Below, one piece after another: positions 33,174-36,100 of a DNA stretch of 64,000 nucleotides (its first letter is position 1; each line of letters opens with the position of its first letter). Origin of the DNA: Liolophura sinensis. Its lineage: Eukaryota; Mollusca; Polyplacophora; Chitonida; Chitonidae. Location of the stretch: positions 10,527,385 to 10,591,384 of the forward strand of contig NC_088295.1 of the NCBI RefSeq assembly GCF_032854445.1. Direction: 5' to 3'. The notes under the pieces are model-generated. The model saw nothing but the letters and a program-made list of their open reading frames with translations, was not told the DNA's origin and ran no database searches. A program made the position numbers and the translations under genes.

Positions 33174-33185
33174 CAACATGGCGGG
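33174..33185 (+). promoter_or_regulatory. TISU-like start context of the long ADK form
   Basis: CAACATGGCGGG surrounds the start codon and matches the SAASATGGCGGC TISU consensus except for the last base. TISU marks TATA-less promoters with very short 5'UTRs and includes a YY1-type site. No TATA box is seen just upstream. Its use here is inferred from the match. Confidence 0.45.
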
Positions 33186-36100
33186 AGAAAACGGAGCTCC
33201 ACCGGCGAAGAAGACACGATCAGAAACGAGGTGATATATGTTCTAATGCGGTCTTTGTGTATGAGCTAAAACCAACGTTATCGCTTTATCAGAGTGTTCA
33301 GGTATGAGCTGATAACAGGGGTTCAAACTCACTCAGCCTGGCTACCTGTCCCAACGTATATCTTACTCACGCAGTCCCAACAACATTCAACGTGCACATA
33401 GCAGGCCGGTCGGTGCACGTGGTGTGGTGGACAATCCAGATTTCAGATAGGCCGCTAGAACAAAAACAAACCTGATCATTAGTGTTAGTGCGGCATGTTT
33501 ATTAGTCATTTTAGGGTTGGAGCACTGTACTTACTCAGATTAAGCTTCGTTTTAAATATGAGCAAATTATCAGCTGCATGGTTGAACAGGTAGGCTACCA
33601 CATGTACTGCAGGCTGTACTGTTTGAGCCTACTGTCGAGTAGCAGACAACATCATGCACATGTAAATAATGTTGTTTACTAGGTCTTTCAGGATCACATA
33701 GTCAATCTACAGCTGATCTTTTATCATTTTGTTGATTGATCACATGTACCACAATTTTTTGTAAACATTAAAGCTTGCTCAATTTCTAATGCAACTCTCC
33801 TCTCCCCCACCGTATCACATTGGACTCACCTACGGGTATATAAGGTGGACTTGCTCCCTTTGGCGGCCTCTTTATCAGTTACAATCGTCAGGATGGCAAG
33901 GTGGGTGATAGGTTAGTGTGTCAAGTTGTACAGTTTCACAGGCTATTAGAATGTTTGTAGACAAGCTGTCACGTGCAGATGCAGTGAATATATGTTGGCA
34001 ATTACTGTACCTTGAATATTTTGGTATGGATTTTATAAAAATATTCATATATACTGTAACATGATAATGACAATGATCATAGCTATGCCATATAACATGC
34101 AGACATTTGATTTATTGTAACGCCAGGGTGATTAGATTTTTCATATGCTTAAATGCTTAAAAACAAAACAAAAAAAAACAAAAAACAAAGAAAAAAAGAT
34201 GGAATACATACTTGAAGTACATACCTTAATTTCCTCTCCCCTCCTTCCTCATCTTTACTGTCTTGTCGCTGTTATGATGACTTCAACTTGATGTCCCTAT
34301 TATTACAGCTTCAACTTGATGTCCCTATTATTACAACTTCAACTTGACGTCCCTATTTTCACAGCTTCAACTTGATGTCCCTATTATCACAGCTTCAACT
34401 TGATGTCCCTATTATCACAGCTTCAGGATCACTTAATTATGATTATATCATGACTTAAAAGAAAAAAACACCTTTTAATAAAGTATCCAAAGTATAATGG
34501 ACCTTGTTATGCTGATTCCAAATATGGTGTTTAAAAAAAATGATTTGTTAGAATAAATAATATTTAGCGTCTTTTAACGATTGGGAAACCAGTGTTAAAC
34601 AAAATGTTTGGGGTGGTATTTTAAACAACACTGCATTATTGAGCCCAGCTTATGAACACATGTAGAGCACAATAACAGGGAGGTGTTCTTTGGTTGTTTT
34701 GCATGTTAAATGCCATAAATTACAAAGTTCATGACATTATGTCTTGTGTGTTACAATCAGTGTTAAAGTAAATGTCTGGGGATAGTATTGCAGATAGTAT
34801 TGCAGATAGTACTGAATGTATTGACCTTCATATAAACATTCATGCATATAAAGCACATTAACACGAGGGGAATGTTTCATCGCTGATGTTCTGTGTGCAT
34901 ATTAATTAATGCAAATTACAAAATTCACAACTTCAGCACTTCATGTATTGAGCTGAAGTTCATATGTCTCCTACATCCGAGCTGTTTGGTAGCCTTACTG
35001 CCAAATTCAATTTTTTTTGGTATAATATATACATGTACTGCTACATTTACATCTGTACTTAATGTGTAAGTCTTCTTAGCAGAGAAAAAAGAAGGTGTCT
35101 CTGTGCTTCAGCTTGTTCAATATTTGCCCCAAAACACAGTGTAGAAACTCACTGATTTTTGCATTTTAAATGTAAAAAAAATAATATGGCTTTTAAGGTG
35201 ATGTAATCTTTATTTAAATCTGACAACCTTTAATTATCCCTGCATCACAGCTTATTCCACTGAACTACCTCCATATCACTACCCCCTATGGGAAATGTTT
35301 TTTCCTTCTGTGTGTCACCACACACAATTTTGCCAGTGCATGCTTAACTTTTTCATCAAGCATTTGCAGTTTGTCAAAAAAGAATTTAAGTAAGCTGGTG
35401 AGTGAGTATCTCCATCTCAACAAAGTTAATGTTAAGTGATAGGTCTTTTGGAAACTGTTGATATATTTGTAGTTCGCTGTGAGTTTTTGCAAGAAATTGA
35501 TTCACGCATGTCTGCTATTTTGATTTTTAATATAAAAATAAAAAGAGATAAAAAGACGCCGAAAGTGAGACACAATTTCTACCTTTATTTTCAGAAGAGC
35601 TAAGGTATAATTAATGCTAGCAATGTGGCTACTGTCGCTAACCAGTTTATTTGATGGCCATTAATGCAGAAGGGCAATTGTAATATTTAAAGACCTTATT
35701 AGTTATTAGCTACAGAATAATGTCTTTGGAAATGTTTACACTTCATACATTTTAAAACTACCATTGTGACATATCATCACTGTATATTACTGTATTTTAT
35801 TTGTTTTACAGTGAAGGCATACTGCTCGGCTATGGCAATCCTCTGCTGGATATTTGTGTCAATGGAACAGAAGAATTCCTGAAAAAGTAAGTTATGACAT
35901 GATGATTCAGGGTGTTCTGAATGTACCTGGCTGCTTCATTATTCTCAGCCTGACTCAGTGTTCTAAAATTGCAGTTAAAGTATTAAAAAATATTTGTGGT
36001 AGTAAACCTGTTTTATTTAGGTATATAGTGTTAGGACATATTGTTTTTTATATAACTACCAAACTATGATATTATAGTGATATATAAAAAAGTTTTACAC

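Follow-up and report, generated by a model that had tools for sequence, protein, structure and literature searches.

The intracellular adenosine level is set by adenosine kinase (ADK). In mammals, according to passages of PMC3118340 and PMC5071315, the first exon of the short form (S) lies within intron 1 of the long form (L), and the two forms differ in their first exon alone. The locus described here raises the question of whether an invertebrate ADK gene has a comparable pair of starts, as was proposed in an initial annotation of the same DNA. The window, i.e., the whole stretch of 64,000 nucleotides that was analyzed, lies at positions 10527385-10591384 of a contig of 96.4 Mb, and the genome as a whole has 609 Mb. 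Overall, its sequence favors a real alternative, ADK-S-like promoter in intron 1, which we regard as moderately likely (with a probability of about 0.6) and as the best single reading.

The adenosine kinase gene and its exons

An intact ADK gene with 11 coding exons and GT-AG introns occupies positions 33178-48023 of the window, on the plus strand. Exon placement was based on homology, with a human ADK-S sequence as the query, and on splice signals; the spliced products have 357 aa in the long form and 342 aa in the short one. Residues 14-356 of the 357 in the long form align with PDB adenosine kinases (best E of 3e-127), and the match to chain 1bx4, which we take to be human ADK, has an E of 1e-124. 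Moreover, the PfkB profile matches the short form with an E of 1e-72 and 245.5 bits (cut-off 25.8), and the catalytic motif DTNGAGDAF is encoded within exons 3-11. Judged by its near full-length homology and by DTNGAGDAF, the gene is a eukaryotic adenosine kinase of the PfkB family. Its coding parts are as follows:

33178-33230 (+), exon 1L coding part: 17 residues and 2 nt (53 nt), phase 2, donor GAG/GTGATA
33893-33900 (+), candidate exon 1S coding part: ATGGCAAG (M-A-AG/), 8 nt, phase 2, donor AAG/GTGGGT
35812-35886 (+), shared exon 2: start of the conserved ADK fold, acceptor ...GTTTTACAG
36418-36471, 37565-37646 and 41317-41486 (+), exons 3-5: by homology and splice signals
42311-42416, 43234-43404 and 44563-44598 (+), exons 6-8: by homology and splice signals
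45610-45724, 46015-46101 and 47899-48023 (+), exons 9-11 (stop included): by homology and splice signals

The initial annotation had placed the first exon at 33178-33230, TATATAAGG and ATGGCAAG followed by GTGGGT some distance downstream, and the end of the acceptor at 35811, and a script run on the window sequence returned exactly these letters and coordinates. The last base of the exon 2 acceptor, ...TTTTACAG, is indeed 35811, and both heads end in phase 2, in frame with it, as claimed, the S head reading MA/S across the junction. At the level of sequence, two first exons are in frame with one exon 2, and the S exon lies inside intron 1 of L. Scored against MAG/GTRAGT, the nine internal donors of the gene reach 6-8 of 9; the donor of candidate exon 1S (8/9) ties the best of them and lies above that of exon 1L (6/9). 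The smallest shared exon has 36 nt (44563-44598).

A tandem array with a period of ~80 bp (41454-41959) starts within exon 5 and repeats the 3' end of the exon together with its donor. In this array, CACAGGTATGTTATAGAAC is present in six identical copies, the first of which carries the donor of the gene model, and splicing at the donor of the second copy, 80 nt further, would cause a frameshift.

In addition, an intact intronless ADK paralogue was found on contig C8, near 7882156-7883046 (positions 1480-2541 of locus L001, minus strand). It encodes 353 aa, is 47% identical to the window ADK, and has GCGD where the latter has GAGD. Identity at codon positions 1, 2 and 3 is 60, 70 and 31%, respectively, over 353 codons, a pattern as expected under protein constraint, and the paralogue, an old retrogene, appears to be constrained at the protein level. 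Its head, of 14 residues, differs from that of the window gene and has no lysine or arginine. The paralogue was rejected as a guide to the S head: it is intronless and its head is a different one, so it is uninformative on exon 1S. In the window itself, an open frame at 7298-7636 (minus strand) shows weak similarity to sodium/hydrogen exchangers (PF00999, E of 1.5e-4, below the curated cut-off).

The long-form start and the candidate short-form promoter

The elements recognized around the two starts are the following:

33174-33185 (+), TISU-like start context of exon 1L: CAACATGGCGGG, matching 11 of 12 letters of the consensus
33805-33811 (+), GT-box-like CCCCACC: short motif, possible element
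33819-33823 (+), inverted CCAAT box ATTGG: short motif, possible element
33837-33845 (+), TATA box TATATAAGG: within intron 1

The TISU consensus is SAASATGGCGGC around the start codon, together with a very short 5' UTR, and the TISU study is reportedly by Elfakess and Dikstein. The description of the exon 1L start as TISU-like was borne out, with one mismatch to the consensus. The window contains two TISU-like sites versus 0.32 expected, a count reached by 1 of 100 shuffles; the second site, CAAGATGGCGGG, lies at 11319-11330, and when its surroundings were read no gene was matched to it. The same start had been called TATA-less, which agrees with a plus strand free of TATAWAAR from 24320 to 33837. 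As in the TISU genes described in passages of PMC2518114, the exon 1L ATG sits inside CAACATGGCGGG, with no upstream TATAWAAR back to 24320; it differs from them by the one mismatch and by an out-of-frame ATG 11 nt upstream (33167). The long-form head contains a basic patch, KKTR, that is missing from the short form. This patch fits what we take to be a monopartite nuclear signal (K-K/R-X-K/R), and its presence in L alone is a suggestive pointer to a nuclear long form. Upstream, a 61-bp satellite extends over ~5.6 kb (26373-31988) and stops ~1.2 kb before the long start.

Within intron 1, the pyrimidine run CCTCTTT (33867-33873) begins 30 nt after the first T of TATATAAGG, and S-form transcription would likely start at this run, at about 33867; no strict initiator or TCT match was found at the spacing expected from TATATAAGG. 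CCCCACC and ATTGG may belong to the proximal part of the S promoter. The start codon of candidate exon 1S has an A at -3 and a G at +4, and the exon carries little sequence information because its coding part is 8 nt long. Unspliced, its ATG opens a frame of seven codons (MARWVIG), and the open stretch 35756-35887 contains no additional ATG that would read from upstream into exon 2 in frame. The S site has a CpG observed/expected ratio of 0.47 (33801-34000), close to the mean over the gene (0.37, sd 0.25); near exon 1L it is 0.44 at 33001-33200 and 0.99 at 33201-33400, which spans the end of exon 1L and the start of intron 1; this profile is compatible with two unlike promoters, without showing them. 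The near-average ratio at the S site counts against an S promoter, as do the 8-nt coding part and the lack of a strict initiator or TCT match. Intron 1 also holds a 28-bp minisatellite of 5.2 copies (34281-34425), downstream of candidate exon 1S.

Under the two-promoter reading, the upstream TATA-less, TISU-like start would give rise to the 357-aa long protein with its 17-residue head, whose KKTR patch may send it to the nucleus. Approximately 660 bp further, within intron 1, the TATA promoter would start transcription near 33867, and a first exon of ~33 nt, encoding Met-Ala and two bases of the next codon, would be joined to the same exon 2. The resulting 342-aa enzyme, devoid of the basic head, would be cytosolic by default. 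Since everything from exon 2 onward, and with it the whole fold, is common to both forms, the second promoter would set the amount and the place of the enzyme, not its chemistry.

Chance and other explanations for the intron 1 signals

The main rival to an alternative promoter is chance, i.e., that exon 1L is the sole working first exon and that the AT-rich sequence of intron 1 happens to contain a TATA, an ATG and a donor with no relation to one another, which we consider possible, if on the unlikely side. To be counted as a unit, a TATA motif had to be followed by a first ATG 35-110 nt downstream, with optional Kozak letters, and by a donor, scored against the consensus given above, after an open frame no longer than 120 nt. 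The loosest rule took TATAWA, no Kozak letter and a donor of 6/9; the middle rule, TATAWAAR, a purine at -3 and a donor of 7/9; the strictest rule, TATAWAAR, a purine at -3, a G at +4 and a donor of 8/9. For the background, we took 20 stretches of 10 kb from the contig that holds the window and read each of them on both strands (400 kb of strand).

TATAWAAR itself is common, with 39 sites on both strands of the 64-kb window versus 18.8 expected, which speaks for chance. Of the 39, the site at 33837 is alone in being followed, at 35-110 nt, by a first ATG with a purine at -3 and then by a donor scoring 7/9 or better. If a donor of 6/9 is accepted and the purine at -3 kept, the two strands of the window hold four units; that at 33837 and one other are in phase 2. 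The loosest rule also speaks for chance: it yielded phase-2 units in 4230 of 20,000 dinucleotide-shuffled versions of intron 1 (21%) and 40 in the background, or 0.26 per 2581-nt intron, and by this rule intron 1 has a second phase-2 unit besides that of TATATAAGG. Against it, the shuffled introns with a phase-2 unit fall to 107 of 20,000 under the middle rule (12 of 2000 in a smaller set) and to 2 of 20,000 under the strictest, for background counts of 3 (0.019 per intron) and 0, respectively. When phase was ignored, TATAWA followed by a donor of 8/9 turned up 38 times in the background, which favors chance; none of these units was in phase 2, and the lack of any phase-2 unit with such a donor in the 400 kb of strand speaks against it. 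The site is, in addition, where mammals have their S exon. Nevertheless, the rules were written post hoc, with the candidate already known and picked from 64 kb that had been scanned, and since they postdate the candidate we read its scarcity as moderate support.

It is also conceivable, although improbable, that a real TATA promoter serves a product other than ADK-S, namely a transcript that is non-coding or stays unspliced, or a short gene nested in intron 1. TATA, inverted CCAAT and GT-box-like motifs are clustered here, promoter activity does not need the joining of 33900 to 35812, and the unspliced ATG does open the MARWVIG frame. However, the donor scores high and its phase suits ADK exon 2, and the rest of intron 1 has no stop-to-stop frame longer than 71 codons on the plus strand. 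A tRNA or other RNA gene under the S promoter was rejected, as the window gave no ARAGORN tRNA and no Rfam match at the gathering score.

An origin of 33001-34100 from a common repeat was likewise rejected: blastn (E<=1e-4) found no copy in 24 loci sampled from this genome, namely 20 ten-kb stretches (L008-L027) and loci L001, L002, L003 and L006, with L004, L005 and L007 excluded as the same ADK gene. Other parts of the window match up to 13 of those 24 loci. When 32000-36000 was matched to the window itself, the stretch from 33000 on returned a short inverted repeat (33023-33075) besides the 28-bp VNTR, and nothing else. By these comparisons, the S-promoter segment is not a common repeat, although it may be a rare one.

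Altogether, the ADK-L/ADK-S-like architecture put forward in the initial annotation is supported in part, by the gene, both frames, the shared acceptor, the order of L followed by S, and the scarcity of the unit; its use as two working starts keeps the moderate likelihood given at the outset.

Comparison with other adenosine kinases and implications

The mammalian long ADK head also bears a basic patch, and intron 1 of the human gene probably interrupts the coding sequence at the same residue and in the same phase as here. PDB ADK chain 9fw6 aligns as MASEGVLLGMGNPLLDI, close to the short-form N-terminus, and all of this stretch except M-A and two bases is encoded by the shared exon 2; chains 9fw6, 8rf7 and 8rpa are presumably from moss and plants. 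A distance of 715 bp separates the two ATGs, and the gene measures 15 kb, whereas the mammalian gene spans hundreds of kb. According to passages of Cui et al. 2011 (PMC3118340), the 11 exons of mammalian ADK range from 36 to 765 nt, and the first exon of S is nested in intron 1 of L; the gene described here likewise has 11 exons, the smallest of 36 nt, a predicted upstream promoter for the long form, and the candidate S exon in intron 1 of L. However, in the passages of PMC3118340 and PMC5071315, the mammalian promoters of both forms have CpG islands, while the candidate S promoter of this gene contains a TATA box and is not enriched in CpG. Furthermore, the mammalian L promoter, as described there, is bidirectional with the AP-3 mu3A gene, whereas a 61-bp satellite lies upstream of L in this gene.

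In the open-licence ADK literature in PMC, as represented by titles and the beginnings of abstracts for part of the matches, no report of alternative ADK first exons in an invertebrate was found, and the word "invertebrate" was not found in passages of PMC3118340, PMC5071315, PMC2518114 and PMC8160517. The nuclear and cytosolic forms of mammalian ADK appear to be functionally different, according to passages of PMC8160517.

A wider proposal is that the ADK-L/ADK-S double promoter is older than vertebrates: exon order, phase and the basic long head would have been kept, the short form would be under a TATA box with a pyrimidine-rich start, and bilaterians in general would control the clearance of adenosine in the nucleus separately from that in the cytosol. 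This we put forward tentatively and hold to be rather doubtful. Even if true, the two-promoter reading adds one more lineage to an ADK arrangement that is already known. If another animal lineage does use two starts, the split either predates vertebrates or arose more than once, and this 15-kb ADK gene would then be a convenient system in which to study it.
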